A stretch of 64,000 nucleotides of DNA, from contig NZ_VDMA02000020.1 in the NCBI RefSeq assembly GCF_006334915.2, forward strand, positions 62,001 to 126,000, in the 5' to 3' direction. Below, piece by piece: positions 22,524-51,161 of this stretch (positions are counted from its first letter, which is position 1; each line of letters starts with the position of its first letter). This DNA is from Microbispora catharanthi. GTDB taxonomy: Bacteria; Actinomycetota; Actinomycetes; Streptosporangiales; Streptosporangiaceae. The notes beneath the pieces were generated by a model. It saw only the letters and a program-made list of their open reading frames with translations, made no database searches and was not told where the DNA came from. Position numbers and translations under genes: made by a program.

Positions 22524-22555
22524 GACGCCTCCTCTGCTCGTCTTTTAGATTTCTT

Positions 22556-23253: not shown

Positions 23254-23294
23254 TCGGGTTATGCACGCCTGCTAGCGCGTGATGCGTGAGCCGT

Positions 23295-24236: not shown

Positions 24237-24285
24237 CTAGCTGCCTTTCTTCTCGTCTGGGCAGAGCCTTGGGAAACTCGCAGGT

Positions 24286-24732: not shown

Positions 24733-24745
24733 GCTCTACGTCGCT

Positions 24746-25222: not shown

Positions 25223-25247
25223 TCTATCTCCTCGCTACATGCCGCGC

Positions 25248-26364: not shown

Positions 26365-26384
26365 AATGTGAGCTGGATCACATT
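26365..26384. promoter_or_regulatory. Perfect CRP/FNR-type palindrome (TGTGA-N6-TCACA)
   Basis: AATGTGA (26365-26371), six bases, TCACATT (26378-26384): arms of 7 bp with no mismatch, identical to the consensus core of cAMP-receptor-protein sites, which actinobacterial Crp proteins also recognise. It lies 638 bp from the I36 operon start and 692 bp from the large secreted protein start, so which promoter it serves is not evident. Confidence 0.6.
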
Positions 26385-26721
26385 GTATGACTGTTGCTGT
26401 GGCATCCGATCTGATGCACCGTGAAATCTTGTAGCGTAAAGGCCGTCTTCCAATCCCAAGTGCCTAGGAAATCTGCGCATATTGCGATACGCGGCGTGTC
26501 GTGCTATGCAGCTACAGGCGATCCGGTGCCAGGGTCGTTGCGGCGACCGCGCACGATAAAAGCACCTGCTGCGGCTCAACTATTAGCTATCCCTTGGAAA
26601 TCGCGCGGTGGCTAAGGGTATCCGGCTCCTAATAGCGTTCATGGGTGCCGCGAAATTTTAAGCTGAGCCGCTAGAAATCCAAGATGGGGGGATAAGCGAT
26701 CACACGCGGTCCTTTACTCGC

Positions 26722-26814
26722 ATGAATCACGGCCTCGTCTCGCTGGTGCTTCCGTTGTTGACCGTCACTTTTGCCGTGGCCACGGAGTCCGGCCCCGATC
26801 AACCGAGCCCTTGA
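26722..26814 (+). CDS. Possible 30-residue hydrophobic peptide
   Basis: ATG 26722, then MNHGLVSLVLPLLTVTFAVA followed by a short polar tail and TGA at 26812. It resembles an isolated signal peptide or small membrane peptide. There is no ribosome site, so this may be chance or the remnant of a lost secreted-protein gene. Very uncertain. Confidence 0.15.
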   Translation: MNHGLVSLVLPLLTVTFAVATESGPDQPSP

Positions 26815-27075
26815 GCAACGAGTTCTCAAATTAACTCCGCTGATGACACGGTCGAAAAGACCTCCACCGATGACGCAAATTGTCATAACCCACATCTATT
26901 TGATCTGCGGGTGAGTCTCCCGGAGAAGGAGAGTCGTCTGTTTTCTCACTCCGGCCGGTCCATGCCGGAATCGAGCTGAACGGTCTCGCATAGAGGCCCT
27001 CCTGCGGGCGTGTCGAACAGCGACTCTCCCGCCTGTTCCCTAGCGGCTGTAGAAGCGACGGAGACGGAGGTTCGA

Positions 27076-30000
27076 GTGGCAACCGCTCGACTGTCGTGTA
27101 CCGCTCTTGTGATGTCTGTGGTCATCGCCGCCTCGATCGTGAGCGGGGTGGAGGCGGTGCAGGCGAAGACTGCGGCATCCGGCGCGGGAACCAATTCGCC
27201 GCCGTCGATGCAAGCTGTGGCGGAGCCGGTCAGAGGTACGGCGGATCGTTCGTCTGTGGAGGCATCACAGCGCGACCGCGTACTGCCGAAGGGATGGCAG
27301 GAGTCGAAGGATCTGGCCTTAGCCACCGCCGGAGACTCGACCGGGTTCCACCTGCTCGTCGCCGAGGCAAGCACCGGGTACCAGTGGCGGACGCTGGCCA
27401 CGCTCAGCGAGCCGGGCATGGACACCGACCAATGGATTGGGAACGCATGTCTGACGGGGTCAGGGAAGCGTGTAATGGCCGTCTACGCACCGCGGCACTT
27501 CACCAACCGGCCTCAGCTCTTCGCCCGGGGAGCTTTCGCCGCGATCATCGACGTGGACAGCGGTGCGGTGACGAAGCTCAAGGATCAGGTCACGCTGGCG
27601 TACTTCAATCCGGGCTGCGGCGCGGACGGTACGGTCGCGCTGACCCAGGGGGCGGATGAGGAGCACCCGACCAGCCGGCTTCTCCGGGTGGAGACCGGCG
27701 GTGGGAAAGTCACCGATTCGGTGGTGATCCCCGGACAGATCACCTCGGCCGTGCCCTACCGGGACGGCTTCGTGGCCGCCCGGGGTAATGCGCTGGTGTC
27801 GCTGTCCACTACCGGAAAGATGAAGAGCCTGGCCGTCGCGGCCTCCGTGCCCTTCGACGTACACGTGGACGCACAGGGAGGCGTTGCGTTCGCCGAGCAG
27901 GCCACAGGAGACGTCACCGTCCGATACCACGCGGAAGGCAAGACGCGCATGCTGGCCAAAGGCCCGCTCGGGGCGTTATCGGTCCGTTCCGGGAGCGACG
28001 GCCGGGTCTTTCTTCTGGGAGAGACGGACGAGGTCCGGAGCCTGCCGGGGAAGACGAGCCTCCTGCCCGGCCCTGCCGCCGGGCAGATCTCTTCGGACGG
28101 AAAGCTGGTCGTAAAGAGCGCGGCTCGGAGCGGCCTCAGGCAAGGACTGCGCGGTGACCCGAGGGACACACGCATCCCGGGCGTTGGCAAGGACAGCGGG
28201 GGACCCGAAGCGATCGACGTGGCGGCAGAGGTCCCGGCGACAGAGGCCAACCTGAACTTCGAGGTCTCACCGGCGGCGAGGCAGGCCCCTGAGATCCGTA
28301 CAGGAAGCGTGTTGAACCCTCGTCTCGCGGCCATCGCGAAAAGCAGGGCAAAGAAGACCGTCGGCGCGGCGGAGAAGCCGGCCGCGACGTCTGCGAGTGG
28401 GGCGGCCCTGGCGGCGGAGAGCCCGATCGACGACGGGTACACCTGCGCGGTCCCGCGTAATGATCCCAACCTGCAGGTCTATCAGCCGCACTGGCGGCAG
28501 GTGGAATGGGCGGTCGACCAGCTGGTCCAGAAGCGCTTGCAGGTGACGCGTAGCAACTGGAAGAGCCTGAAGCTCACCAACTGGTCTCCGCAGGCCGAGT
28601 TCCCCGCCTACGACCTTGAGGGGAAAGGGCGGGTGCCGACGAACATCATGCTTGGCATCCTCGCTCAGGAGTCGAATCTCTGGCAGGCCCAGCGGAGGGT
28701 CGCCGAAGGCGAACTCGGCAACCCTCTCGTGGGCAACTACTACGGGGTCGACATCTACGACGACGACCCCTCCAACGACTGGGCCATCGACTTCTCGAAG
28801 GCGGACTGCGGGTACGGCATATCGCAGCAGACCGACCACATGCGCAAGGCCGGGTCGGAACGGCCCGGGGAGACGGCGTGGCCCGCGGACAAGCAGAAGG
28901 CGGTGGCCCTGGACTACGTCACCAACATCGCCGCCGGGCTGCGCACCCTGACGGAGAAGTGGAACCAGATCTGGATCGACACCGGCGGCGCTATGAAGGC
29001 GAACGACGGCAACGCGGCCAAGCTGGAGAACTGGTATTACGCGATCTGGGCCTACAACTCGGGCTGGCATCCCGAGAAGGAGGCCAACGGCACCGACGCC
29101 AACGGCGACCCGAACAACGGCGCCTGGGGACTCGGCTGGACCAACAACCCCTCCAACTCCTACTGGAAGCCGGGGCGGCATCCGTTCCTCGACGGGAACA
29201 CGTACGCGGACGCGGCGACGCCGCAGTACTGGCCCTACCAGGAGAAGGTGCTCGGCTGGGCCGCCTGGCCCATCACCAAGACCTACTGGGACCCCGCCCA
29301 AGGCAAGACAGTGGAGCAGGCCGGCTACAACGCCGCGTGGTGGAACCACAACGACTACCGCTCGGCCGTCGTCCCCGTCATCCAGAAGGCGAACCTGTTC
29401 GCGGTCGACGTCAACGCCTTCTGCACCGCGGATAACAACTGTCAGCCCGGCACCACGAACTATGAATCGCCCGCCACCAGTACGGCGGGCACCTGCCTGC
29501 GAGCGGACTTCAAATGCTGGTGGCACATGCCGAAGACCTGGAAGTCCGACTGCACGACGCAGTGCGGGAACGAGGGCACGATCCGCTACTCGGATGACAA
29601 GTGGAGGAGCACTGAACGAGAGGACCCGCAGGACTACTGGTATCCATGCCAGACCCCAGGGCTACCGTCCGGCGCGAAGATCGTCGATGACGTCCCCAGC
29701 ACGGTGCCGGCGTTCCGCGGAGGCTGTGACAACAGCGGCTGGACCAACTCCGGAACCTTCTCTCTCGAGTTCGGCCGTGATTCCGCCGGCCGCGTGCCTG
29801 CCAAGGCGGACTTCCAACAACTCGGCAACGGCTTCGGCGGCCACGAGTGGTTCGGCTACGCGCGGAACGCGAGCCACAACGGGGCCGTGATGAGAGTCAT
29901 CGGCACCTGGACGCTGAACCAGCAGATCAACGGACCGGCACAGGTGTTCGTGCATCTGCCGGACCACTACGGCTACACCAGGCAGGCGCGCTATGACGTG

Positions 30001-30210
30001 CACACCGCCCAGGGCATCAGATCGAGGGTCATCTCCCAGCGGCCGGTGAAGGCGAATGCGGGGCAGCAGGCCAACCGCTGGGTGTCCCTCGGCGTCTTCG
30101 CCTTCTCCGGCACGCCGAAGGTCTCCTTGAGCACGCTCAACGGCGAGGGCGTGGGAGACGAGAGCGTGGTCTTCGACGCCGTGGCCTTCTTCCCGACCAC
30201 CTGTCCGTAA
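27076..30210 (+). CDS. Large secreted lytic-transglycosylase-like protein with golvesin-like C-terminus
   Basis: 1044 residues from GTG 27076, chosen for GGAGG 5 bp upstream and a signal peptide (LSCTALVMSVVIAASIVSG) directly after it. Residues about 60-430: repeated beta-strand sequence suggestive of a propeller. About 440-470: linker. About 480-790: SLT-like domain with E532 in LGILAQESNLWQAQ and CGYGISQQTDHM, where the Glu is the presumed catalytic acid and GYGISQ replaces the usual GIMQ. About 800-1044: Cys-rich segment, then a golvesin/xanthan-lyase-like beta-sandwich (GFGGHEWFGYARN, WTLNQQINGPAQVFVHLPDH, VVFDAVAFFP). It resembles actinomycete proteins annotated NocE. Probably cleaves or binds cell-wall glycan outside the cell (inference). 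Confidence 0.75.
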   Translation: MATARLSCTALVMSVVIAASIVSGVEAVQAKTAASGAGTNSPPSMQAVAEPVRGTADRSSVEASQRDRVLPKGWQESKDLALATAGDSTGFHLLVAEASTGYQWRTLATLSEPGMDTDQWIGNACLTGSGKRVMAVYAPRHFTNRPQLFARGAFAAIIDVDSGAVTKLKDQVTLAYFNPGCGADGTVALTQGADEEHPTSRLLRVETGGGKVTDSVVIPGQITSAVPYRDGFVAARGNALVSLSTTGKMKSLAVAASVPFDVHVDAQGGVAFAEQATGDVTVRYHAEGKTRMLAKGPLGALSVRSGSDGRVFLLGETDEVRSLPGKTSLLPGPAAGQISSDGKLVVKSAARSGLRQGLRGDPRDTRIPGVGKDSGGPEAIDVAAEVPATEANLNFEVSPAARQAPEIRTGSVLNPRLAAIAKSRAKKTVGAAEKPAATSASGAALAAESPIDDGYTCAVPRNDPNLQVYQPHWRQVEWAVDQLVQKRLQVTRSNWKSLKLTNWSPQAEFPAYDLEGKGRVPTNIMLGILAQESNLWQAQRRVAEGELGNPLVGNYYGVDIYDDDPSNDWAIDFSKADCGYGISQQTDHMRKAGSERPGETAWPADKQKAVALDYVTNIAAGLRTLTEKWNQIWIDTGGAMKANDGNAAKLENWYYAIWAYNSGWHPEKEANGTDANGDPNNGAWGLGWTNNPSNSYWKPGRHPFLDGNTYADAATPQYWPYQEKVLGWAAWPITKTYWDPAQGKTVEQAGYNAAWWNHNDYRSAVVPVIQKANLFAVDVNAFCTADNNCQPGTTNYESPATSTAGTCLRADFKCWWHMPKTWKSDCTTQCGNEGTIRYSDDKWRSTEREDPQDYWYPCQTPGLPSGAKIVDDVPSTVPAFRGGCDNSGWTNSGTFSLEFGRDSAGRVPAKADFQQLGNGFGGHEWFGYARNASHNGAVMRVIGTWTLNQQINGPAQVFVHLPDHYGYTRQARYDVHTAQGIRSRVISQRPVKANAGQQANRWVSLGVFAFSGTPKVSLSTLNGEGVGDESVVFDAVAFFPTTCP

Positions 30211-30344
30211 ACGCACACGTCAGTCGACGGAGCCGCGAAGGCCGTGGCTGAAGCTTGCGTTGCGACAAGGCTGCCCAGTTCACCTGTTCGTCGTGTCCCA
30301 CGATAGGCGGAGCATTGTTACCTCCACATCGAAACCGTCTCCTG

Positions 30345-33323
30345 ATGCGGCTGGCGGCGCTGACGGTGATCGGCGTACTCGCATCGGTTCTCCAGTCGGC
30401 CACGCCCTCAAGCGCCCAGACGCCGATGTCGGCTCCGACACCGGCGGCCGTCTCGCCCACACCAGATCCGATCCTGGGCAACGAGTCGCCCCGGCCCTAT
30501 CGACCGGTAGAGCGGCCAGAGAGCGAACTACGCAAGCAGCCGGAAACCCGGAAACCCGACTTCGGCGATGACGATAAAATCTCCAAGGCCTGGTCTCGAG
30601 GAGAGATCGGCGTCGACGAGTACGTCCGAGACACCATTCTCAGAGTCGCGGATCCGAGCCGGCTCCCGAAGAGATTCAAGTCGGAGGCGAAAACGACCCA
30701 TGAGGACGGTCTGACGCTAACGTATGCGCTTTCGCTGGTTAAGCAGGCGTCGCCGGAAACGCAGGCCTGGGTGCGGAGTCTCGCCGTCCGGCCCGGAGAA
30801 AGCCGCGTCTCATCGCAGTCGGCCTCCTCCTGGGTCGACTGCGCCACACCGTATACCGGGTTCACGTACTGGTTCACCTGTAAACGGTCGTTCTCAATGA
30901 ACCATCAGTTTGATATCTACTACAACATCGACGGGTTCTCGGTGAATCCGGACTATGGCACGCCAATGGACGGACTTCCGGACGTCGACCTGGCCCCGAT
31001 GAACGGCGTTCCCGACGCGATCGACAAGATCGAGTCGTCAATGCGAGTGGCCTGGTCCCAATATCAGTCGATGGGGTACGGCCTGACCGGAAGCAAGACC
31101 GAGGTGTACATCGGTTTCGATATCAACAACAACCCTGGCCTGACCTTCCCCTTCGGGGACATAATTGACGGCGGGGCGGTCATCTTCCTGCCGACAGACC
31201 CTGCAGCGAAAGTGGATGGCCAAGGCAATCCCTATCGCGACGAGGACTGGTACACCTATCTTATCCGACACGAACTGTTCCATGCGGTTCAATACCACTA
31301 CATTCCGAACCTCAACTTGCTCGGAAGCCTCACCACGGTCAACTGGTGGATGGAGGCGACCGCGGAGTGGGCTGCTGATGTCGTGTACCAGCGGAACGAC
31401 CCTCAAGGGCCGGGTTGGAAGGCTTATGCCAGGCTCCTGTACGCGTTTCTGAGCAATCCGGAAAGCGCGGTGAACTCGAGCGACGGCCTGGCCGGAAGCC
31501 GACAATATGGAGCCTTCATACTCGCGCAATATCTGACCGAGCGCACCGGTACGGTCGATTTCGTCAGGAAGACCTGGGAGGCGATTGACAGCACGCTCAT
31601 CGTGCACCCGATCGAGGCGATCGAACAGGTTCTGGCCGGCTACGGCCTCAATCTGAAAAACGAGCTGCTGGGTTTCGCGGTGGCCAACTACCGGCTGACC
31701 GGGAAGACCGCGAATCTGTCAGCCTTCATCGGCAGCGCGGACGGCTATGCCCACACACACGCGTCCACTCTCTGGCGTGACAATGCCAAGCTCAAAGACA
31801 CGTCTGTCAGGCGGCCCAGGCGATCGGCGGAGAGAACCATGAGCTGGGGCGACTCGGCCAATGGAAGCACCGCGCTATGGCACGGCGGCGCCTCCTACAT
31901 CGAGTTGACCCCATCCTCGACCGGGAGCGGAAGGGTGTCCGTCCGGGTCGACGCGCCCTCTCAGAGCAGGCCCACAGTGGCCAATCTGCACTACTTCCTC
32001 ATCGCATGGGACAACCTGGTGTCGAGGACGCCATTGCGGTGGGCTGGTGTCGAGGCCAAAGAAGGGGAGGGTCCACGCGACCTGAGCATAAAGATCAACG
32101 CGGGGGAGGTCGCGACGCTGATCGTGGTTCGCCCGGAACTCTGGCTGCTGTCGCTGACAATCCCGAATGACGATTCCATAAAGCAGCCCGTGAACTGGAC
32201 CGCCTCAATGGTGAAGGAGGCCGATGCGGAGCAGGACACTGCTCTGAACGCAATGTGGGGCGGATACGCGAGCAACGCCGGGTGCGCCGACTGGAGCGGC
32301 GGGGACGCCGCCCAGGCCGTGAAGCTCCCTTCGGGAAAGCGAGCATGGTTCTTCTCCGACACCTTCCTCGGCAGCCCGAGCAAGCGGCAGACCGGAAGCG
32401 AGACCAGCTACATCCGCAACTCGGTGGTCATCCAGGACGGGTCCGCGCTACGCACCATCACGGGGGGAAGCACATGCCGGGAGACGGACACGAGCACCGA
32501 TTTTTGGTCGCGATACGCGAAGACTCCGGTGGGCGAGGGCGGCCAGTTCTGGACCGGGGACTCGAAGGTCGTCAACGGAGATGAAGTGGTCAAGTTCTAC
32601 TACGAGGGAGTAGGGGACGAGAACACCCGTGGCGCTTACGTGAGATTCCCGGTCGGCGATCTGGAGGCGAAGAGTACGCTCACCGTCACTCCGACGAGAC
32701 TACAGGAATGCTCGCCCCGGCCTCCGGCCCCTGTCATCTGGGGTTCCTCCCTCCTCAGTTACGGCGGGTACACCTACATATACGGCTGGGAGGCGAGCGG
32801 AACAGACGCGGAAAAATCGGTCTACCTCGCACGCACGGTCGACGACTCGGACCTTGTCGGCCAGAGCAAGTGGCGTTACTACGCCGGTGTGGGGGGCGAC
32901 GGATCCGCTCAGTGGACGGCATCCTGTGCCCAATCGAAGCCGCTGCAACCAAAGGCTGAAATCGACTTCAGCGTCGTCCAGATCAACGGCCTGTTCTGGC
33001 TGGTGCGGCACACGCCGGCGTCCGAGGCGCCCGGGAAGATCGTCGCCATGCCTGCCAAGAGCCCGTGGGGATTCGGCTCCGAGCAGGTGGACCTGTACAC
33101 GCCCCCGGAGACGAAGACCAATCCTCAATACTCCAGTGTCTACGGAGCGAGGGTGCAGCCGGGCCTGCTCTCGGACCCTAGCAAGATAGTCGTCTCGTAT
33201 ACGGTCAGCACGAGCGCCGTGAATCTGAGCTGCTGGACGCGCGGCTACTCGTTCCCCGACAACCAGTTCCCCCGCTTCGTTGACGTTCCGCTGAGTCAAT
33301 TCGTCGCCACCAAGCTTCCATAA
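30345..33323 (+). CDS. Secreted HExxH metalloprotease fused to DUF4185-like five-bladed propeller
   Basis: 992 residues from ATG 30345 (MRLAALTVIGVLASVL, signal peptide); the start is uncertain because no ribosome site is clear. Pro-rich linker, then a protease-like domain with H309-E310-x-x-H313 in RHELFHAVQYHYI and downstream Glu in WWMEATAEWAADVVYQ (about 337-340), a gluzincin-like arrangement as in MXAN_6640-type proteins. Residues about 520-640: beta-rich linker. About 660-990: propeller segment with MWGGYASNAGCADWSGGDA, WFFSDTFLG, PPAPVIWGSSLL, GYTYIYGWE, resembling DUF4185. A fragment of this segment occurs, inverted, at 34191-34375. Follows the transglycosylase-like gene by 134 bp on the same strand. 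Confidence 0.75.
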   Translation: MRLAALTVIGVLASVLQSATPSSAQTPMSAPTPAAVSPTPDPILGNESPRPYRPVERPESELRKQPETRKPDFGDDDKISKAWSRGEIGVDEYVRDTILRVADPSRLPKRFKSEAKTTHEDGLTLTYALSLVKQASPETQAWVRSLAVRPGESRVSSQSASSWVDCATPYTGFTYWFTCKRSFSMNHQFDIYYNIDGFSVNPDYGTPMDGLPDVDLAPMNGVPDAIDKIESSMRVAWSQYQSMGYGLTGSKTEVYIGFDINNNPGLTFPFGDIIDGGAVIFLPTDPAAKVDGQGNPYRDEDWYTYLIRHELFHAVQYHYIPNLNLLGSLTTVNWWMEATAEWAADVVYQRNDPQGPGWKAYARLLYAFLSNPESAVNSSDGLAGSRQYGAFILAQYLTERTGTVDFVRKTWEAIDSTLIVHPIEAIEQVLAGYGLNLKNELLGFAVANYRLTGKTANLSAFIGSADGYAHTHASTLWRDNAKLKDTSVRRPRRSAERTMSWGDSANGSTALWHGGASYIELTPSSTGSGRVSVRVDAPSQSRPTVANLHYFLIAWDNLVSRTPLRWAGVEAKEGEGPRDLSIKINAGEVATLIVVRPELWLLSLTIPNDDSIKQPVNWTASMVKEADAEQDTALNAMWGGYASNAGCADWSGGDAAQAVKLPSGKRAWFFSDTFLGSPSKRQTGSETSYIRNSVVIQDGSALRTITGGSTCRETDTSTDFWSRYAKTPVGEGGQFWTGDSKVVNGDEVVKFYYEGVGDENTRGAYVRFPVGDLEAKSTLTVTPTRLQECSPRPPAPVIWGSSLLSYGGYTYIYGWEASGTDAEKSVYLARTVDDSDLVGQSKWRYYAGVGGDGSAQWTASCAQSKPLQPKAEIDFSVVQINGLFWLVRHTPASEAPGKIVAMPAKSPWGFGSEQVDLYTPPETKTNPQYSSVYGARVQPGLLSDPSKIVVSYTVSTSAVNLSCWTRGYSFPDNQFPRFVDVPLSQFVATKLP

Positions 33324-33350
33324 GTCGGGGCGGCGCGAGAAATGCGGATC

Positions 33351-33390
33351 CTCCGATCCGGCCGGAACTGGCAGGCCGGCCGGATCGGAG
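33351..33390. terminator. Perfect 15-bp hairpin after the metalloprotease gene
   Basis: Arms 33351-33365 (CTCCGATCCGGCCGG) and 33376-33390 are perfect inverted repeats with a 10-nt loop. No T-run follows, as is common for actinobacterial terminators. It lies 27 bp after the stop. Confidence 0.65.
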
Positions 33391-33482
33391 AACGAGCGAG
33401 CGTACCAGGGCCGGTCCCCTGAGATCGGCATTTCCGGCGTACGCTGGGAGGGCCAGAGATCGAGCGGGTACGGAGCGACTGA

Positions 33483-33833
33483 GTGATTATGCGAAATACG
33501 GATGGAGCCTGCGCGACCTCCAGAGCTCGGGTGTTGACCGTGGGGCTGGTGATCGTGGGCGCCCTGGCCTCGAGTGCCTGTCAACCTCGCGCCGAGGCGA
33601 TGTTTCACATCATCAACTACAGTCAGGAAACCGTCACGGTTGGGTGGAAGTCGAACGGTGGTTCTTTCCTGACCCTCGATCCTGGGGAAGGATATCCCTA
33701 CGGCGTCGCGGACAGCGATTGCACCAATCCGGAGCCGGACGCGATCCTGATTGCGACGAGTGAGACTGGAAAGATCTATACCTACGGCCCGCGGATCTGC
33801 AAGGGGACATCCTGGCTGATAGGGAAACAGTGA
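33483..33833 (+). CDS. Small lipoprotein, intact copy of a duplicated pair
   Basis: 116 residues from GTG 33483 (ATG 33489 also in frame). Signal peptide VLTVGLVIVGALASSAC with lipobox SSAC, then a compact beta-rich domain: MFHIINYSQETVTVGWKSN, DPGEGYPYGVADSDCTNPEP, TGKIYTYGPRICKGTSW. Two Cys outside the lipobox. A second, frameshifted copy follows at 34390 with the same motifs (FHVVNRSREPIEVMW, FGVSDSACASPQPDD, ETGKTYTYDPPVC). I do not recognise the family. Confidence 0.75.
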   Translation: MIMRNTDGACATSRARVLTVGLVIVGALASSACQPRAEAMFHIINYSQETVTVGWKSNGGSFLTLDPGEGYPYGVADSDCTNPEPDAILIATSETGKIYTYGPRICKGTSWLIGKQ

Positions 33834-33853
33834 GCATGTACGTGCTGTAGTAG

Positions 33854-34190
33854 TGGTCCCAGCCTGCGGAGCTCGTGCCGTTCCTGTCCTTTGATGTGGA
33901 GATCCGCCGCGTGATCTGCTCGACGAACGCGATCGAGTCGGTCAACGCCCGGATCCGCCGGGCGGTCAAGGCCCGCGGGGCGGCCGCGGCCACTTCCCCA
34001 ACGAGCAGGCCGCACTCAAGTGCGTCTACATGGCGATCATGAGCTTGGACCCGACGGGCAAGGGCCGCAAACGCTGGATGAACCGATGGAAGGCCGCCCT
34101 GAACGCCTTCGAGATCACCACCGAAGGCCGACTGTCAGCAACCCGCCGTTAAACAAACCGAAGCCGAGTTACACCTGTTCACTGGACAGG
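33854..34190 (+). mobile_element. IS256-family transposase C-terminal remnant with right inverted repeat
   Basis: Reading from 33854: WSQPAELVPFLSFDVEIRRV, ICSTNAIESVNARIRRAVKA, a frameshift, then HFPNEQAALKCVYMAIMSLD, PTGKGRKRWMNRWKAALNAF, EITTEGRLSATRR, stop at 34150-34152. STNAIES and the GKGRKRW-MNRWK-ALN region are hallmarks of Mutator-type IS256 transposases (C-terminal third). The frameshift, near 33985, is a 10-bp insertion that creates GCGGCCGC. The end GAAGCCGAGTTACACC-TGTTCAC... (34160-34190) looks like the element's right terminal repeat. The 5' two-thirds of the element are missing. Confidence 0.85.
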
Positions 34191-43059: not shown

Positions 43060-43152
43060 ATGTACAAGGAGTTCCTCGGCGAGGTCGTGGTGTGGCTGAT
43101 CCCCATCGTCATCCTCGTGGGCATCGCGCTGCTGGTGACCAGCCACTCCTGA
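43060..43152 (+). CDS. 30-residue single-pass membrane peptide
   Basis: ATG 43060 to TGA 43150-43152. MYKEFLGEVV then hydrophobic VWLIPIVILVGIALLVTSH; the helix spans about residues 8-28. AGAGGA lies about 10 bp before the ATG. A promoter-like TATGCT and a strong terminator flank it, so it forms its own transcript. I do not recognise a family. Peptides of this kind often regulate a membrane enzyme; an alternative is a short RNA whose hairpin is the terminator. Confidence 0.6.
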   Translation: MYKEFLGEVVVWLIPIVILVGIALLVTSHS

Positions 43153-43199: not shown

Positions 43200-43293
43200 T
43201 CGCTCCCCACGGTGCGGCCACGGTGCGGCAACTCAGCCCTGGCCAGGAACCTAAACGCCACTCACGTCTCAACTGGTGACTAATGCCTACAAA

Positions 43294-43343
43294 AGTATCA
43301 CTAGGCCGGAATCTTGATCATTTCGACCGGATCATGTGATACT
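43294..43343. promoter_or_regulatory. 50-bp inverted repeat upstream of the diterpenoid operon
   Basis: AGTATCAC (43294-43301) mirrors GTGATACT (43336-43343); inner CCGG pairs also mirror, and TGATCA lies near the centre. It is 86 bp before the P450 start, where a cluster-specific regulator could bind. No regulator gene is encoded in the operon. Confidence 0.6.
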
Positions 43344-43428
43344 CCGCGAGTGATGTTCGGTGTGGTCGCTGGACGAGGCCCTGGCGAGGGGCGTCCGGCC
43401 ACACGGGTACCGCGAGAGGGAGACGGCC

Positions 43429-44811
43429 GTGACCTCCGAGGCGATCGACATCCACCGGGTCGCGAGGCGTTCCGCCCTGCCGTTGCGCCGGACCCTTCGT
43501 CCTCTGCTGCGGGATCCCGTCAACGCGCTCGCCGGCTTCGCCCGGCAGGCGCGCGGTGAGGTCGTCCGGTTCAATCTCGGGCCGTTCCGTCCCTACCTGG
43601 TGAGCCATCCGGACCATGTCCAGCACGTCCTGCGCCATGACTGGGAGAACCATCCGCGCGAGGGGATGTTGTGGAAGCCGGTGGAACGGCTCGCCGGCAG
43701 GAGCATCATCAGCGACGGCCCTGACTGGGAGTCCGCCCGGCGGATCATGCAGCCCCTCTTCACCACCAGATACGTCGCGAGCCTGACCCGGGACATGGCC
43801 GAGACGATCAATGAGGGCCTCACGGCGTGGGAGCCGTACGCGCGGGCGGGGCGGTGGATCGACATCTACGAGGAGATGAGCCGCCTCGTGAGCAAGACCG
43901 TCATCCGCGTCCTGTTCGGCAGCAAGATCTCGCTCTCGGACGCCGAGCGGCTCGGCCCGGCGTACGGGATCGCGGCGACCTCGTTCGCCTCCCGGCTGCT
44001 GCTGCCGTTCGCGCCGGACTGGATCCCGTTGCCGGGAGACCGAGCCTTCATGCGAGCGGTGAAGACGATCGACGAGGTCGTGATGCCACTGGTCAGGCAG
44101 GCCCGCAGGGAGCCGGGGGACGGCAACGACATCATCTCGGCGCTCGCCCGCGCCCGCCGCGACGAGGAGGACGCGGCGGCGGAACGGCGGATCAGGGACG
44201 ACCTCGTCAGCATCTACGGCGCGTCCGTGGAGACGACGGCGGTGGCGCTGACCTGGCTGTGGCCGACCCTCCACGACCATCCCGAGGTCGCCGCCCGGAT
44301 GTACGAGGAAGTGGAGACCGTGGTCGGACGCGGGCCGGTGGACGCGGAGTGCCTGCCCCGGCTCACGTACATGAAGACGGTGTTCAGCGAACTGCTGCGG
44401 CTGTACCCGCCGGGCTGGATCCTGCCCCGGATGGCGGCGAAACCGAGCCGGCTCGGCGATGTGCCGATCGAGGCCGGTTCCACGCTGTTGATCAGCCCTT
44501 TCGCCACCCATCGTCTCGAGGGGTTCTGGGACCGTCCCGAGGAGTTCGACCCGGAGCGGTTCGCCGAGGGGGGCGGCCAGGAACGCCGGCACCGGTACGC
44601 CTACTTCCCGTTCGGCGGGGGTCCGCACGTCTGCATCGGCCAGCACCTCTTCTACGCGGAGGCGCCGCTGATGGTGGCCGGCCTCCTGGCCCGCTTCCGC
44701 CCGCAGGTGCGCGCTCCCCGCCCGCTCACGCCGTTCCCGGCGGCGTCGCTGCGGCCCAAGGAGCTGGTCGAGGTGCGCCTGGTCCCCCTCGCCGGGGGCG
44801 CCACGGCATGA
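43429..44811 (+). CDS. Cytochrome P450 of the diterpenoid operon
   Basis: 460 residues from GTG 43429, chosen because GAGGGAGA lies 5-7 bp upstream; a further in-frame GTG (43360) has no ribosome site. I-helix region YGASVETTAVALTW (G-x-x-T core changed to V-E-T-T), ExxR in FSELLRLYPPGW, heme loop FPFGGGPHVCIGQHLF with Cys ligand. It overlaps the terpene synthase by 4 bp. Such P450s hydroxylate diterpene skeletons; regiochemistry cannot be predicted. Electrons must come from a ferredoxin/reductase encoded elsewhere. Confidence 0.93.
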   Translation: MTSEAIDIHRVARRSALPLRRTLRPLLRDPVNALAGFARQARGEVVRFNLGPFRPYLVSHPDHVQHVLRHDWENHPREGMLWKPVERLAGRSIISDGPDWESARRIMQPLFTTRYVASLTRDMAETINEGLTAWEPYARAGRWIDIYEEMSRLVSKTVIRVLFGSKISLSDAERLGPAYGIAATSFASRLLLPFAPDWIPLPGDRAFMRAVKTIDEVVMPLVRQARREPGDGNDIISALARARRDEEDAAAERRIRDDLVSIYGASVETTAVALTWLWPTLHDHPEVAARMYEEVETVVGRGPVDAECLPRLTYMKTVFSELLRLYPPGWILPRMAAKPSRLGDVPIEAGSTLLISPFATHRLEGFWDRPEEFDPERFAEGGGQERRHRYAYFPFGGGPHVCIGQHLFYAEAPLMVAGLLARFRPQVRAPRPLTPFPAASLRPKELVEVRLVPLAGGATA

Positions 44812-45704
44812 GCATGGCACGAAGCCGCGACGCCGCGCACCTGGCGGCGGCGGCCGCAAGTGGCAGGACCAGCGCTCTCGCCGCGCGCTGCCAGCGAGAC
44901 CTGCAGGAATGCGTGCAGGCATTCCCCGAGCTGTTCTCGGCCGGGCCGTTCGACGCGACGCTGTTCGCCACGGTCTCCCTCGCCAACGCGTTCGGCTCTC
45001 CGTGGGCGGCCGCGGAGCAGCTCAGGATCGCCAACCGCACGTCCTTGTGGATCTTCGCGGTCGACTGGCTGATCGACCATGAGGCCGCCTCGCATGAAGA
45101 GATCGACGAGATCGTGCGGGGCTGCCTCGCGGTGGCGGACGGCCGCGGGGCCGTCCCGGACACGTCGCTCACCCGGTTCCTCGCCGTCATCCGCGACGAC
45201 CTCGCCGCGTCCCCGCTGTTCCCGAGCCTCCACGCGGTCTGGCGCGCCGAGCTCGAACGCATGCTCGGCGCCATGGCGCGCGAGTGGGAGTGGAAGCAGG
45301 GCGGCGAGCCCGCGCTGCCGACGTTCGAGGAGTATCTCGGCAACGCCGACAACTTCGGCTCCACCCTGGTCAACGTCGGGCACTGGATCCACTCCGGCGA
45401 TCCGCTCCTCGTTCCCCACCTGGACGAACTGCTCCGGGCGAGCGGCGCCGTCCAGCGCGTGCTGCGCCTGCTCAACGACCTCGCGACGTACGAACGCGAC
45501 GTCGGCTGGGGGGACCTGAACGCCCTCATGCTCGGCGTGTCCCGGGACGAGGTGGTCGCGCGCGTCGCCGCCCTCACCGGCGAATGCCACGCCATGCTCG
45601 AGCCGCTGTGGGCAACCCGTCCCGACGAGTCGGCGTACCTCGAACGGCAGATCGGTTACAGCACGGGCTTCTACGGGCTCGCGGACTACTGGGGCGGACT
45701 TTGA
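44808..45704 (+). CDS. Class I terpene synthase (diterpene synthase)
   Basis: 298 residues from ATG 44808. First metal motif region AVDWLIDHEA (D86-x3-D90) in place of the usual DDxxD; second motif NDLATYERD (223-231), an NSE variant with Asp instead of Glu at the last position. Size and helical pattern fit short class I synthases that ionise a bicyclic diphosphate made by a class II cyclase, as CYC2-type enzymes do in terpentecin-like pathways. Overlaps the P450 (4 bp) and the cyclase (TTGA). Product unknown. Confidence 0.85.
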   Translation: MSMARSRDAAHLAAAAASGRTSALAARCQRDLQECVQAFPELFSAGPFDATLFATVSLANAFGSPWAAAEQLRIANRTSLWIFAVDWLIDHEAASHEEIDEIVRGCLAVADGRGAVPDTSLTRFLAVIRDDLAASPLFPSLHAVWRAELERMLGAMAREWEWKQGGEPALPTFEEYLGNADNFGSTLVNVGHWIHSGDPLLVPHLDELLRASGAVQRVLRLLNDLATYERDVGWGDLNALMLGVSRDEVVARVAALTGECHAMLEPLWATRPDESAYLERQIGYSTGFYGLADYWGGL

Positions 45705-47272
45705 GCGTGAACGACCTTGCCCCGCAGGCGGCCATCGACGTCACTGGTGCGGCTCAGGACCTGGTGCTCGGGCTGATGTCGATGCCCTGGGGACAGGTCT
45801 CGCCGTCCGTCTACGAGACCGGCCGTCTGGTGACGTTGGCACCCTGGCTCACCGGGCACGGCGAGCGCGTGCGCTGGCTGATCGACACTCAGCGCAGCGA
45901 CGGCGGCTGGGGAGCCCCGGACGGCTACGGGCTCGTGCCCAGCCTCAGCGCGACCGAGGCCCTCCTGTCGGTGCTGCGCCGGGGCGACGACGCCGGCGTG
46001 GACGAAGAGACGTTGCGGGAGGCTGCGGCGCGCGGGCTGCGGCGGCTGTCGCGCTGCCTCAGCGGCGCGCGGATGTCGCTGCCCGACATGCCGGCCATCG
46101 AACTGATTGTCCCGTCCCTGGTCACGCTGATCAACGAGCACATCGAGGAGAACGGGATGAGCGCCGCCCTGGCGCTGCCCGCGGGGATGAGCGCCGCACC
46201 GCTGAAGGCGGTCCGCGCCTGGCTGGCATCGGAGGCGGAGATCCCACAGAAGCTCCTGCACGCGCTGGAGATCGCCGGTGACGCGGCCAACGGGGCGGCC
46301 GTGGTCCACGTGACCGAGATCGGCACGGTCGGCGCCTCGCCGGCGGCGAGCGCGGCGTGGCTGGGAGACAGGGGGCCGAGCGAGCCCGGGCATCCCGTCC
46401 GCTGGCACCTGGAGGCCATCGTGCGCAGGCACGGCGGCCCGGTGCCGGTGGGGCTGCCGATCACCGTGTTCGAGCGCGGCTGGGTGCTGAGCTGGCTCGC
46501 CCGGGCGGGCATTCCCTTCGACGTGCCGCCCGAGATGCTGGCCGACCTTCGCGCGGCGATCGGCCCCGAGGGCACGCCCGCCGGCGCGGGCCTGCCACCC
46601 GACGCCGACACCACCTCGGTCGCGCTGTACGCGCTGGCGCTGCTCGGCGTACCGTACGAGCCGGACAGCCTGTGGGCCTTCGAGACGCCGACGCACTTTT
46701 GCACCTGGCAGGGTGAGGAGGGCTCCTCGGTCAGCGTGAACGCTCACGTGCTGGACACCTTCGGCCAGTACGTCGCGGTGCGGCCGGCCGAGTCGGCGCG
46801 GTACGCCCCGGCGATCGGCAAACTGTCGGCCTGGTTGCTTGAGCGGCAGCGGGAGGACGGAAGCTGGGACGACCGCTGGCATGCCTCGCCCTACTACGCG
46901 ACCGTGTCATGCTCCCTCGCGCTGCACGAGTTCGGCGGCCCCGGAGCGGTGCCGGCAGTGCGTGCCGCGGTCGAATGGGTGCTGGACACCCAGCGCGAGG
47001 ACGGGTCATGGGGCCGGTGGACCGGTACGGCGGAGGAGACGGCCTACGCCCTGCAGCTCCTGATGTTCGCCGGAAGCGGGGAACGCGTACGGGACGCGGC
47101 GGCGCGCGGGTACGCCTACCTGCTTCGGGTCGCGGACGTCGCCGAAGGGCCGCCGCTGTGGCACGACAAGGACCTCTACCGGCCGCTGGCGGTCGTCCGT
47201 GCGGCCGTCCTCGCCGCGATCCATCTCGCACAGTCCCGATCACTTGGTGTGAGGCCCATCAGTCAAGTATGA
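45701..47272 (+). CDS. Class II diterpene cyclase
   Basis: 523 residues from TTG 45701 (GTG 45707 also possible). Prenyltransferase-like alpha-barrel repeats with QW-type motifs (QRSDGGWG, QREDGSWDDRW, QREDGSWGRW). The catalytic acid motif DADTTS (301-306) has the middle Asp303 but Thr at the fourth position instead of DxDD, a variant I recall from the mycobacterial Rv3377c group. Second half has ETPTHFCTWQGEEGSSVSVNAHVL. It would protonate geranylgeranyl diphosphate to a labdadienyl or similar bicyclic diphosphate. GGPP synthase is not in the window. Confidence 0.88.
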   Translation: MSVNDLAPQAAIDVTGAAQDLVLGLMSMPWGQVSPSVYETGRLVTLAPWLTGHGERVRWLIDTQRSDGGWGAPDGYGLVPSLSATEALLSVLRRGDDAGVDEETLREAAARGLRRLSRCLSGARMSLPDMPAIELIVPSLVTLINEHIEENGMSAALALPAGMSAAPLKAVRAWLASEAEIPQKLLHALEIAGDAANGAAVVHVTEIGTVGASPAASAAWLGDRGPSEPGHPVRWHLEAIVRRHGGPVPVGLPITVFERGWVLSWLARAGIPFDVPPEMLADLRAAIGPEGTPAGAGLPPDADTTSVALYALALLGVPYEPDSLWAFETPTHFCTWQGEEGSSVSVNAHVLDTFGQYVAVRPAESARYAPAIGKLSAWLLERQREDGSWDDRWHASPYYATVSCSLALHEFGGPGAVPAVRAAVEWVLDTQREDGSWGRWTGTAEETAYALQLLMFAGSGERVRDAAARGYAYLLRVADVAEGPPLWHDKDLYRPLAVVRAAVLAAIHLAQSRSLGVRPISQV

Positions 47273-47475
47273 TCTCGGCACGGGAAATCCGTCGAATTCG
47301 GAAAAGTGGACCTTTTCGCCACTATATTCCCGACTTGAGGGCTTTTCGTCGCCTTTGCTAAGGTGGCCGAGATATAGCGCGGGTGTGGGGTGAGCAGCGC
47401 TTGCGACCCATGACGTCGTGCGAGTGTTAATCGTCGCGAAAACCTCGCGTATCGCCGATTTCGCAAGGTGGTCTC

Positions 47476-49764
47476 ATGCGCTTCCGTAATTCCAGGGTGC
47501 GGACCAAGGTGACGGCATTGCTGGTGTCCCTTGCCGCGCTGTGGGCGTTCGCCGCGTGGGTGACGCTACGGGAGGGTCTGAATCTCGTCTGGGTCGCGGT
47601 CTACGACAAGGGAGTGGCTCAGCCCAGCGAAACGCTCCTGGTCGAGTTGCAGCAGGAGAGGCGGTTGACGGCCGTCGTCCTGGCTCAGTCCTCGTCCGCC
47701 GACCGCGCCGCCCTGACGGCCCAGCGCGTGCGCACCGACGCCGCGGCCGCCGACTTCCGCCGCCTCTCCAAAGGCGGTGACGTGCAGTTCGCCGCGGACG
47801 AGGTGCTTCAGCGGCGCATCGACGAGATGATCCGCCAGCTGGACGGTCTGCGCAAGAACCGCGGTCTCGTCGACGGCGGGCAGATGGATCGCGTCAAGTC
47901 GTTCGACGGCTACACCACCGTCATCGACTCGGTCTATCGCACGTACGACGCCCTGGCCACCCTGGACGACGAGGGTGTCGCCGAGGACACGCGGGCGCTC
48001 ATCGAGCTGAGCCAGGCGCGGGAACTGCTCTCGGAGGAGGACGCCCTGCTTGCCGGCGCTCTGTCGTCGGGACGGCTGACGGTGTCGGAGCGCGCCCGCT
48101 TCTCCCAGATCGTCGGTGCCCAGCGCTTCCACCGCAGCGAGGCCGTGCAGGCGCTGCCCGACGCCGACCGTGCCGTCTTCGACCGCCTGGAGCGGAGCCA
48201 GACCTTCGCCCGCCTGCGGATGCTCGAAGAGACCGTCATGGAGAGCACCCGGCCCGGGGGGCTGCCACCGATCGGCGCGGAGCAGTGGAGATCGGCGACC
48301 GAACCGGCCCTGGCCCAGTTGCAGAAGACGGTCCTGGATGCCGGTGACCGTCTGGTCGAACGGACCATCCCGGTCGCCGTCGCGGTCGTCGCCCGCCTCC
48401 TGCTGGCCGGCGTGCTCGGCCTCGTGGCGGTCATCGCGTCGATCGTCCTGTCGGTCACCACGGCCCGGGCCCTGGTGCGTCAGCTGGAGAAGCTGCGCGA
48501 GGCCGCGCTCGAACTGGCCAACGAGCGGCTGCCCGGAGTGGTCGCCCGCCTCGCCCAGGGCGAGAAGGTCGACGTCAAGGCCGAGGCGCCGCCGCTCGAC
48601 TTCGGACCCGACGTCATCGGCCAGGTGGGCGCGGCGTTCAACACCGTGCAGGAGACCGCCATCCGCACCGCCGTCGAGGAGGCCCAGCTCCGGCAGAGCA
48701 TCCGCGACATCCTGCTCAGCCTCGCGCGGCGTACGCAGTCGCTGGTGCACCGCCAGCTCACGCTGCTCGACGTGATGGAGCGGCGCGAGTCGGACCCGGC
48801 GGAGCTGAAGGACCTGTTCCGCATCGACCACCTCGCCACCCGTATGCGCCGCAACGCCGAGAACCTCATCGTCCTGTCCGGGGCGTCCCCCGCCCGTGCC
48901 TGGCGGCGCTCGGTGCCGATGGTCGACGTCGTACGCGGCGCGCTGGCCGAGGTCGAGGACTACACCCGCGTCACCGTGATGCCGATGGGGGAGACCGCGC
49001 TCATCGGACGCGCGGTGGGCGACGTCATCCATCTGCTCGCCGAGCTGATCGAGAACGCGGTGTCGTTCTCCCCGCCGTACACGATGGTGCAGGTGGGCGG
49101 CCAGGCGGTGGCCAGCGGCTACGCGATCGAGATCGAGGACCGCGGCCTCGGGATGAGCGCCGAGGACCTGGAGGCGACCAACCAGCGGATCGCCGACCCG
49201 CCCGAGTTCAACCTGTCGAGCACCGCCCGGCTCGGCCTGTACGTCGTCAGCCGCCTGGCCGAACGGCACGGGATCCGGGTGTCGCTCAAGGCGTCGCCGT
49301 ACGGCGGGACGACCGCGGTCGTGCTGCTGCCGCGCGACCTCGTCATCGAGGGCGGGGAGGAGCTGCCCGGGGAGGAGACCGCTTCCGGCCTCCCGCGGCG
49401 GGAGCCCGGCTCCCGGAGGATCGCGCTGGTCGGCGCGCCCGAACCAGTTCAGGAGGTGGTTCCCGTGCCGAGGGCTCCCGAGCCGCCCAGGCCCGTGCAG
49501 AGCGTCCCACCACCCGGCGGCGCGGATCCGGACAGGCCTGAGCCTTCGGCCGGGTTCACCCCGTCAGGCTTGCCCTTCCGGGTGCCGCAGGCCAACCTCG
49601 CCCCCGCGCTCGCCGAGGAGTCGAGGAACGCGGACGAGGCGGAGGACCGGGAGGATCGATCGCCGGACGACATCCGCAAGATCATGGGCTCGTTCCAGTC
49701 GGGGACGAGGCGCGGCAGATCCGAGGCCGCGAAGCTGCTGAGTGACGAGGAGGACAACCTGTGA
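47476..49764 (+). CDS. cvnA: Conservon sensor kinase-like protein
   Basis: 762 residues from ATG 47476, AAGGTGG 5 bp upstream. N-terminal helix (VTALLVSLAALWAFAAWV), nitrate-sensor-like (NIT) extracytoplasmic domain about 45-300 with conserved LLVELQQERRLT, second helix (VAVVARLLLAGVLGLVAVIASIVL), then a kinase core with R-R-T-Q-S-L-V-H-R-Q and ATPase-like LLAELIENAVSFSPP, IEDRGLGM, RLGLYVVSRLA. Typical CvnA: histidine-kinase-like ATPase followed by a disordered Pro-rich tail (about 630-762). First gene of a four-gene conservon. Confidence 0.94.
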   Translation: MRFRNSRVRTKVTALLVSLAALWAFAAWVTLREGLNLVWVAVYDKGVAQPSETLLVELQQERRLTAVVLAQSSSADRAALTAQRVRTDAAAADFRRLSKGGDVQFAADEVLQRRIDEMIRQLDGLRKNRGLVDGGQMDRVKSFDGYTTVIDSVYRTYDALATLDDEGVAEDTRALIELSQARELLSEEDALLAGALSSGRLTVSERARFSQIVGAQRFHRSEAVQALPDADRAVFDRLERSQTFARLRMLEETVMESTRPGGLPPIGAEQWRSATEPALAQLQKTVLDAGDRLVERTIPVAVAVVARLLLAGVLGLVAVIASIVLSVTTARALVRQLEKLREAALELANERLPGVVARLAQGEKVDVKAEAPPLDFGPDVIGQVGAAFNTVQETAIRTAVEEAQLRQSIRDILLSLARRTQSLVHRQLTLLDVMERRESDPAELKDLFRIDHLATRMRRNAENLIVLSGASPARAWRRSVPMVDVVRGALAEVEDYTRVTVMPMGETALIGRAVGDVIHLLAELIENAVSFSPPYTMVQVGGQAVASGYAIEIEDRGLGMSAEDLEATNQRIADPPEFNLSSTARLGLYVVSRLAERHGIRVSLKASPYGGTTAVVLLPRDLVIEGGEELPGEETASGLPRREPGSRRIALVGAPEPVQEVVPVPRAPEPPRPVQSVPPPGGADPDRPEPSAGFTPSGLPFRVPQANLAPALAEESRNADEAEDREDRSPDDIRKIMGSFQSGTRRGRSEAAKLLSDEEDNL

Positions 49765-50210
49765 CGCAGAAGACCGGGGCCTCCGCGGACCTCGCGTGGC
49801 TGCTCGACGATCTCGTCGCGCGGGTCCGCGAGGTCGAGCACGGCATCGTGCTGTCCACCGACGGCCTGCTGCTGGCCGGCTCGCAGGGACTTCGCGTGGA
49901 GGACGCCGAGCACCTGTCCGCCGTCGCCTCCGGCCTGCAGAGCCTGGCGCGCGGAGTCGGCGAGCGCTTCCAGGGCGGGTCCATACGGCAGACCATCGTG
50001 GAGATGAAGTCGGCCTACCTGCTCGTGACCGTGGCGGGCCAGGGCGCCTGCCTGGCCGTGCTCTGCTCGGGAGACGCCGACGTCGGCCTGGTGGCGTACG
50101 AGATGGCTATGCTCGTCGTGCGCGTCGGGCAGTACCTCACCTCGCCCGCCCGGACCACGATCGACCGGGCCGCGCTGGACCGGGCCACCGGGAGCGAGGT
50201 TCGCCGGTGA
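49761..50210 (+). CDS. cvnB: Conservon roadblock/LC7 protein
   Basis: 149 residues from GTG 49761, 4-bp overlap with cvnA. Roadblock/LC7 fold (LAWLLDDLVARVREVEHGIVLSTDGLLLAGS, ASGLQSLARGVGERFQGG, VEMKSAYLLVTVAGQGACLAVLC, VAYEMAMLVVRVGQYL). These MglB-like proteins bind and activate the small GTPase of the conservon. Confidence 0.95.
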   Translation: MTQKTGASADLAWLLDDLVARVREVEHGIVLSTDGLLLAGSQGLRVEDAEHLSAVASGLQSLARGVGERFQGGSIRQTIVEMKSAYLLVTVAGQGACLAVLCSGDADVGLVAYEMAMLVVRVGQYLTSPARTTIDRAALDRATGSEVRR

Positions 50211-50581
50211 ACGCCGAGTGGGGCCCGGACGAGGAGCGCTTACTCGACGCGCCGACCATCCGGCCATACGTGATCGCACGCGGCCGTACGGAGGCGCAGG
50301 ACCGCTTCGACCTCATCTCGCTCGCGGTCACCATCCGGCCCACCACGGGAGCCGAGATCGGGCTGGACCCCGAGCATCAGGCGATCGTGCGGCTGTGCCG
50401 CAGGCCGCTGTCGGTCGCGGAGATCGCGGCCCATCTGGACCTGCCGGCCGGGATCGTCCGGGTCCTCCTCGGCGACCTGTTCGACCGGGGCTTCGTGGCC
50501 GTGCAGCAGCCCCAACCGGAGATGGACGTGCTCGACGAGCGGATGTACAAGGCGGTGCTCGATGGCCTTCGGGCGCTCTGA
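50207..50581 (+). CDS. cvnC: Conservon DUF742 protein
   Basis: 124 residues from GTG 50207, overlapping cvnB by 4 bp. Winged-helix-like DUF742 (TIRPYVIARGRT, ISLAVTIRP, EHQAIVRLCRRPLSVAEIAAHLDLPAGIVRVLLGDLFDRGFV). Third gene of the conservon; scaffolds or helps link the kinase-like protein to the GTPase. Confidence 0.95.
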   Translation: MNAEWGPDEERLLDAPTIRPYVIARGRTEAQDRFDLISLAVTIRPTTGAEIGLDPEHQAIVRLCRRPLSVAEIAAHLDLPAGIVRVLLGDLFDRGFVAVQQPQPEMDVLDERMYKAVLDGLRAL

Positions 50582-51161
50582 TTCGGCGAAGAACCCGCCG
50601 AAGATGCCCACGGCGATCAAGTTGCTGATCGCCGGAGGCTTCGGGGTGGGCAAGACCACGATGGTCGGCGCGGTGTCGGAGATCCGGCCGCTGCGCACGG
50701 AGGAGACGCTGACCGACCGCAGCGTCGGCGTGGACGACCTGTCCGGGGTCGAGGCGAAGGCGACCACCACGGTCGCCATGGACTTCGGCCGCATCAGCAT
50801 CGGGCAGGACTTCGTCCTCTATCTCTTCGGCACCCCCGGCCAGGAGCGGTTCTGGTTCGTCTGGGACGAGCTCGCCCGGGGAGCGCTCGGTGCGGTCGTG
50901 CTGGCCGACACCCGCAGGCTCGCCGACTGCTTCCCCTCCGTCGACTATTTCGAGCGGCGCGGCACGCCCTTCGTCGTCGCGGTCAACTGCTTCGAGGGCG
51001 CCCCGGTCTTCGATCTGGACGAGGTCAAGCTCGCGCTCAACCTCGGCCAGGACGTGCCGATCATGCTCTGCGACGCGCGCAAGCGGGAGTCGGGCAAGGA
51101 AGTCCTGATCGAGCTCGTCAAGCACGCGTACGGCAAGCGCCCGACCGCCGCCACCCGCTGA
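50562..51161 (+). CDS. cvnD: Conservon small GTPase
   Basis: 199 residues from ATG 50562, overlapping cvnC by 20 bp. G1 GGFGVGKTT, switch I SVGVDDLSGVEAKATTTVAMD, G3 LFGTPGQERFWF, NCFEG in place of NKxD, G5-like CDARK. MglA/Rab-like conservon GTPases form a membrane complex with CvnA-C and affect differentiation and secondary metabolism in Streptomyces. A weak terminator follows. Confidence 0.95.
   Translation: MAFGRSDSAKNPPKMPTAIKLLIAGGFGVGKTTMVGAVSEIRPLRTEETLTDRSVGVDDLSGVEAKATTTVAMDFGRISIGQDFVLYLFGTPGQERFWFVWDELARGALGAVVLADTRRLADCFPSVDYFERRGTPFVVAVNCFEGAPVFDLDEVKLALNLGQDVPIMLCDARKRESGKEVLIELVKHAYGKRPTAATR

Follow-up and report, generated by a model that had tools for sequence, protein, structure and literature searches.

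Why is a small bacterial diterpene operon followed, in one genome after another, by the same set of signalling genes? The question is raised by a locus of Microbispora catharanthi within a 64,000-nucleotide stretch of DNA (contig NZ_VDMA02000020.1, positions 62,001 to 126,000; hereafter the window), in which genes for a cytochrome P450, a class I diterpene synthase and a class II diterpene cyclase are followed by a conservon, cvnABCD, whose sensor kinase CvnA carries an extracytoplasmic NIT domain. We found that this seven-gene order is conserved, that enzymes and conservon occur together across genomes, and that the NIT domain changes type jointly with the three enzymes on a nearly constant kinase. 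This pattern leans towards a reading in which the product of the three genes is a diterpenoid ligand of the linked NIT domain, the seven genes forming a signal-and-receptor unit. The features that carry the argument are as follows.

43429..44811, + strand: cytochrome P450, 460 amino acids (aa), GTG start, TGA stop; Pfam p450 1.8e-66
44808..45704, + strand: class I diterpene synthase, Sat1646-like, 298 aa, ATG start; Terpene_syn_C_2 8.7e-9, phmmer to Sat1646 6e-84
45701..47272, + strand: class II diterpene cyclase, at most 523 aa, start at TTG 45701 or GTG 45707; SQHop_cyclase_C 9e-17
47476..49764, + strand: cvnA, membrane sensor kinase (NIT, second transmembrane segment TM2, HATPase); Pfam NIT 1.6e-43, HATPase_c 1.4e-12
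47635..48354, + strand: extracytoplasmic NIT domain of CvnA, aa 54-293, changing type together with the biosynthetic genes
49761..50210, + strand: cvnB, Roadblock/LC7; Pfam Robl_LC7 3e-24
50207..50581, + strand: cvnC, DUF742; Pfam DUF742 1.6e-33
50562..51161, + strand: cvnD, GTP-binding; Pfam ATP_bind_1 8.8e-33
43200..48400, + strand: divergent block of P450, class I, class II and the NIT half of cvnA, 59-79% identical in nucleotides between types
48352..48429, + strand: right edge of the divergent block, CvnA aa 293-318, entering TM2; best single change point in 13/15 pairs

A sequence-only reading of the window had described positions 43294-47272 as a minimal diterpene pathway of P450, class I and class II enzymes, which is well supported by Pfam families, coordinates and overlap (the class I start overlaps the P450 end by ATGA). 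The three genes stand within that extent; its left end does not, because 43294 lies in upstream DNA and the P450 begins at 43429 (with an alternative in-frame GTG at 43360). The same reading overlooked the four conservon genes at 47476-51161, which belong to the same conserved locus. By eye, the P450 has the heme motif FGGGPHVCIG and an ExxR motif. Relative to the nearest relative, L067, dN/dS (the ratio of nonsynonymous to synonymous substitution rates) was 0.23 for the P450, 0.33 for class I and 0.16 for class II, indicating working genes, all three under purifying selection. Of the named relatives, Microbispora rosea stands nearest, with a class I enzyme 89% identical, and class I and class II genes were present in 15 of 15 Microbispora genomes among the matches listed.

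The conservon core is complete and in order, from the CvnA kinase through the Roadblock and DUF742 proteins to the GTPase, the role of CvnD being that given in PMC13343842 (papers are cited here for excerpts of their text). Searching CvnA against PDB with phmmer matched the kinase regions and gave no match to the NIT domain. Since the window genome has eight DUF742 places in all, the conservon of this locus is one specific subfamily. Its position is strikingly constant: in 40 loci taken from the 62 genomes that had a class II hit, out of 198 relatives, cvnA lay downstream on the same strand in every case and the seven-gene order was complete in 35, the remaining five being L085 and L088 (class I not in place), L099 (no cvnB hit), L100 (contig end) and L102 (rearranged). 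Outer neighbours were less constant, with a GDSL gene in 15 and a sugar-binding protein gene in 14 of the 40. At L085 (genome G112) and L088 (G017), P450, class II and conservon stand together and the class I hit lies elsewhere (G112:C1:3386186 and G017:C297:448); Thermomonospora echinospora (L102/L161) has back-to-back conservons, the class II gene accompanying one of them and P450 and class I the second, as well as an extra distant class I gene. In a scan of named genomes, limited to the best 80 of 160 class I relatives and sharing several genomes with the 40-locus set, cvnA was again downstream on the same strand at all 80 loci, 75 of which had the seven genes in order (not L150, L155, L161, L175 or L185). 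For Micromonosporaceae, 126 of 300 genomes were positive; of 20 loci chosen from these, 16 had the conservon downstream, including L222, which we take as the Salinispora sat operon on the basis of 98% class I identity to Sat1646. Within this family, L240 has its class I gene behind cvnD, and the genome of L226 has other cvnC genes elsewhere.

Presence across genomes followed the same pattern. With cut-offs of E <=1e-30 for class II and E <=1e-28 for the linked cvnC type, 60 of the 198 genomes had both, 2 had class II only, 4 had cvnC only and 132 had neither (Fisher 3e-43, a value that ignores shared ancestry). One class II-only genome (G065) has a cvnC that narrowly misses the cut-off and lies behind the class II gene on one contig with it, and in the other (G034) cvnC is cut by the contig end; the four cvnC-only genomes gave matches of 48-58%.

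Comparison of loci within a genus links the enzymes with the sensor. The 14 Microbispora loci fall into four types, giving 67 between-type and 24 within-type pairs. Between types, identity was 49-57% for the P450, 44-60% for class I, 61-72% for class II and 35-50% for the NIT domain, whereas the kinase (residues 380-620) was 92-100% and CvnB/C/D 86-99% identical; within types the corresponding ranges were 72-95, 68-95, 72-95 and 61-95%, with the kinase at 93-100%. The C-terminal tail of CvnA (621-762) is also variable (66-97%), independently of type: the window is 71% identical there to L068, of the same type, and 91.5% to L070, of another. The type C locus L072, from Microbispora hainanensis, compared with L073 (taken as Sphaerimonospora), reached 72% in the P450 (<=52% to types A/B), 68% in class I (51%) and 61% in NIT (49%), with class II about equal (73 vs 72%), while its kinase was nearer to types A/B (99%) than to L073 (90%).

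In nucleotide comparisons of the window with L080 and of L068 with L084, the divergent block was bordered by near flanks and a kinase region that are mostly 90-99% identical. On the left, the block starts at an approximate position in the DNA 5′ of the P450; in the L068/L084 pair one genome is without the sialidase gene and similarity stops in the outermost 900 bases. The right edge was located in 15 pairs picked for unlike NIT domains from Microbispora, Actinomadura, Micromonospora and Microtetraspora, with one Actinomadura-Actinoallomurus pair, and the two pairs outside the consensus interval had their change points at CvnA 343 and 346, TM2 spanning about aa 305-326. Four-fold degenerate sites were 38-65% identical in the biosynthetic genes and NIT and 65-97% in the kinase, a contrast that is clear in close pairs. 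Because these sites show the same contrast as the proteins, we rejected protein-level selection on the kinase as the sole cause and attribute the pattern to DNA exchange beyond protein conservation alone.

The joint change held up in quantitative tests. All seven genes were present at 128 of 140 loci; once L236 had been dropped for its length and duplicates had been merged, 103 distinct rows including the window remained. Given the kinase and CvnB, C and D, the partial correlation with NIT was 0.72 for the P450 and 0.56 for both class I and class II; the kinase, given CvnB-D, showed 0.15, 0.09 and 0.14 with P450, class I and class II. In 162 close pairs from 60 loci, chosen for nearly equal kinase and CvnBCD and not independent of one another, NIT correlated at 0.96 with the P450 and 0.25 with the kinase; the 102 pairs with NIT below 57% had P450 at 40-70% and class I at 42-67%, and the 60 pairs with NIT >=57% had 69-98% and 68-97%. 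Approximately unbiased (AU) tree tests for Microbispora (14 rows) gave the following: on NIT data the signalling tree was rejected (3e-55) and the biosynthesis tree was not (0.059), and on biosynthesis data the signalling tree was rejected (1e-7) and the NIT tree was not (0.051), both non-rejections being near the 0.05 line. For an Actinomadura set of 17 rows, the values for NIT data were 1e-135 against the signalling tree and 0.20 against the biosynthesis tree, and for biosynthesis data 2e-35 against the signalling tree and 0.139 against the NIT tree; signalling data rejected both other trees in both sets. Parsimony placed eight type changes on the signalling tree of each set, where the minima are three (Microbispora) and six (Actinomadura set). 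Within Microbispora, NIT, P450 and class I agreed in type in 91 of 91 pairs.

Fast evolution of NIT domains in general could also produce variable sensors, and we therefore compared other conservons of five Microbispora genomes, using the 30 of 33 NIT matches that had a locus. In three other single-copy conservons, NIT identity was 76-98% and followed the kinase and the species; a fourth control group (L242-L245, four of the five genomes) gave 79-97% and likewise followed species. The controls group G000 with G003 and G013, and G011 with G001, while by diterpene type G000 goes with G011, and G013 with G001. Since control conservons track species, general NIT evolution was rejected as the sole cause. 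A further conservon (L246-L249, four genomes) does have two NIT types, 49-51% identical between types with kinase regions at 92-96%, and its neighbours differ too: these are genes for an ABC importer and its NMT1-like binding protein, to which L275 adds an O-methyltransferase gene. Between L272 and L275, importer and NIT were 57-77% identical and the rest of that conservon 70-97%. This case suggests a possible rule, that a NIT domain follows the genes handling its molecule. In the segments L272 (G000 contig C48, 1-8870), L273, L274 and L275 of this conservon, the divergent block includes the oppositely transcribed ABC importer operon, and by eye L274 has a similar O-methyltransferase gene.

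What might the enzymes make? The trio belongs, by its sequences, with the published Salinispora terp1/sat operon (SaDTS/Sat1646, SaCPS and CYP1051A1; isopimara-8,15-dien-19-ol), which has the same three gene kinds side by side, the same kind of class I motifs, a DxDTT class II enzyme in L222 and, at L222, cvnABCD after the operon too. Identity to L222 is 44% for the P450, 48.5% for class I and 52.3% for class II, and no match above 70% to a pair of known product, which the sequence-only reading had named as grounds for abandoning a new scaffold, was found among the sequences searched. That reading rested its case for an uncharacterised scaffold on motifs, and each motif can indeed be read: D86-WLI-D90 and NDLATYERD (residues 223-231) in class I, which are variants (DWLID/NDLATYERD) of the DDxxD and NSE/DTE kinds, and DADTTS in class II. 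None of them is atypical. Sat1646, the best match of the class I enzyme among solved structures, has Mg in its crystal structure on the similar EDWQVD87-92 and NDLASYERD223-231 (PMC9814573), with D88 and D92 each in 137 of 139 class I rows. In the class II alignment of 140 rows, which includes the window and keeps duplicates, 138 have DxD followed by Thr or Ser, the two exceptions being the decayed L235 (DVGATA) and the distant L241 (DSDDTA); the L222 cyclase, beside its Sat1646 relative, has DADTTA. The motifs being the family norm, we rejected novelty by motif. The lack of a nearby geranylgeranyl diphosphate (GGPP) synthase had been offered as a further clue. It is correct that none lies on the window contig, but six polyprenyl synthases are encoded elsewhere in the genome, and we rejected the clue; one of the six (L005) scores well (9e-75) to the GGPP synthase IdsB model, scored on the domain alone, with its best score to another polyprenyl transferase model and the full-length cut-off not reached.

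For the class II enzyme the top match was PtmT2, which is an ent-copalyl diphosphate (CPP) synthase (phmmer 9e-117). The motif W.DKDLY is present in 133 of the 140 rows and reads WHDKDLY in the window, which places Asp at the site of PtmT2 D502 and Tpn2 G485. This Asp has been tied to labdane formation in PtmT2, with Gly at that place in the clerodane synthase Tpn2 (PMC9814783), and its presence leads us to expect a copalyl-type intermediate. The halimane-type cyclase Rv3377c (6vpt) shares DxDTTS, yet is distant (phmmer 1.8e-27) and has Ala at the place of the WxDKD Asp, so that another product would be expected (PMC9814783). Sat1646 converts CPP to isopimara-8,15-diene, and changing its catalytic Tyr183, a product-determining effector site, to Phe shifts the product to isopimara-8(14),15-diene (PMC9814573). 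The window enzyme has Phe183 at this place (its Tyr289 corresponds to Sat1646 Tyr288), which argues for a double-bond position other than that in isopimara-8,15-diene. A natural product with an 8(14),15-pimaradiene skeleton has been reported from M. hainanensis (PMC10301674), which is suggestive only as a hint to the window product; L072, the locus of that species, has Cys instead of Phe at site 183. Across the 139 class I rows this site is F in 46, L in 45, Y in 20, C in 10, T in 10, V in 3, I in 3 and M in 1, one row having no residue shown there, and given this variability products probably differ between lineages.

Taken together, these observations fit the following scheme. A prenyl synthase elsewhere in the genome would supply GGPP, from which the class II enzyme would form a copalyl-type diphosphate; the class I enzyme would convert this to a pimarane-type diene, and the P450 would oxidise the diene to the diterpenoid. 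That diterpenoid would be the cognate ligand of the CvnA NIT domain, and the kinase half would relay the signal to CvnB and CvnC and to CvnD, a GTPase. Pherotypes, each with its matching sensor domain, may then pass between species, all built on a shared signalling chassis. The genes, their order, their joint occurrence and their joint change are observed; we infer the product, its release, its binding and the direction of signalling. The widest form of the proposal is more tentative, a case we would put at slightly less than even: a trans-species diterpenoid pheromone system, with oxidised pimarane-type ligands of NIT conservon receptors in Microbispora, Actinomadura, Micromonospora, Salinispora and relatives, and a general rule that NIT reads the molecule of the adjoining genes.

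The main rival, which we consider rather unlikely, is that this is a plain terp1-type operon regulated by its conservon on an outside cue, with the sensor half hitchhiking by linkage in block exchange. The conservon cvn8 regulates specialised metabolism (PMC8510531), and several observations count against a signal-and-receptor unit. The NIT half adjoins the class II gene, so linkage by itself could carry it, and strongly diverged blocks (60-70% identity) are mostly exchanged whole, so that matching need not be selected and the missing recombinants are weak evidence. The four-fold contrast is weak in the most distant pair, L158/L179 (class I 65, kinase 65); the close-pair cut-offs were chosen after the pattern had shown in Microbispora; types match less tightly in the Actinomadura set (NIT/P450 128/136, NIT/class I 123/136); and in Micromonosporaceae L226 and L241 are without an adjoining conservon, L228 has it divergent and upstream, and L235 is decayed. 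As the importer-linked conservon makes plain, diterpene loci are not alone in having a type-switching NIT domain. In the experiments of the PMC9814573 excerpts, the strains from which sat and stt come gave fermentations without detected diterpenoids, and kauranes from Actinomadura geliboluensis, together with abietanes and a labdane from Acrocarpospora, show that genera carrying the locus make other skeletons, the cited passages tying no gene cluster to any of these. Linkage nevertheless fits poorly with the position of the boundary: the kinase half and cvnBCD are homogenised up to TM2, yet the roughly 1 kb between class II and TM2 is not, a similar edge at TM2 recurs in several genera, and the further polymorphic conservon changes its NIT domain with importer genes.

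If the NIT domain does sense the diterpenoid, it might do so as product feedback or self-protection for an antibiotic or antifungal rather than as a social signal. Matched specificity would give the same sequence pattern, and actinomadurol, a norditerpenoid of a locus-carrying genus, is antibacterial (PMC10951976). We judge this improbable, however, since the locus is in all 15 own-genus genomes among the matches listed, which resembles a core trait more than a sporadic antibiotic, and neither a transporter nor a resistance gene figures among the seven genes (no search extended to other conserved neighbours). The view that unusual metal and acid motifs mark a new diterpene scaffold is very improbable: about 50% identity to enzymes of known product and the variable effector position 183 leave some room for it, but the motifs are common to Sat1646 and nearly all the family, and the WxDKD Asp points to a labdane intermediate (PMC9814783).

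Several known systems resemble the signal-and-receptor arrangement in part. In the comQXPA pherotypes of Bacillus, signal-making genes and the N-terminal sensor vary while the cytoplasmic kinase is conserved (PMC4008528, PMC4408185), and here too the sensor part co-varies with the signal-making genes on a conserved kinase part; comQXPA has a peptide signal and a response regulator, unlike the predicted diterpenoid and G-protein-like relay of this locus. Indole prenyltransferase clusters are constantly beside a conservon, with signalling suggested, but involve other chemistry, and joint sensor-domain change is not described in the excerpts of PMC3617294. Like other conservons, the actinobacterial G protein systems, the window has the four core proteins and a NIT-type CvnA; its P450 lies upstream with the terpene genes and not downstream as a CvnE accessory. 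CvnE accessories go with CvnA proteins without NIT (PMC8510531, PMC13343842), and on both grounds we rejected such a role for the P450. Literature searches on conservons, alone or together with terpenes, P450s or diterpenes, showed no diterpene link, most subscription papers being outside their scope.

Conservons occur widely among actinomycetes. At least one of them controls several pathways of specialised metabolism (PMC8510531), and according to the excerpts of PMC13343842 no test has been made of what their NIT sensors detect. The locus offers a candidate ligand for one large NIT sensor family, with built-in specificity controls, in that the several types within a genus share almost the same kinase. 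If true, the proposal would account for the retention across genera of the terp1-type operon, which its first paper calls orphan in the title, and would tie this operon to the pimarane-type diterpenoids obtained from Microbispora, from Micromonospora (Verrucosispora) and from others (PMC10301674).

Upstream of the P450 we noted one further feature.

43314..43343, + strand: promoter-like element TTGATC-18-GATACT, 5′ of the P450; aligned in 13/13 Microbispora upstream regions compared

The DNA around this element is largely type-dependent in those 13 regions. A gene for a 30-residue membrane peptide (MYKEFL...) at 43060-43152, between the GDSL gene and the P450, is kept in all 13 and is followed in the window by a terminator-like hairpin at about 43167. 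Farther away, G+C content falls to 0.59-0.66 at window positions 22001-34000, compared with about 0.72 around, and with large open reading frames at 27010-33323 this segment is perhaps an island.

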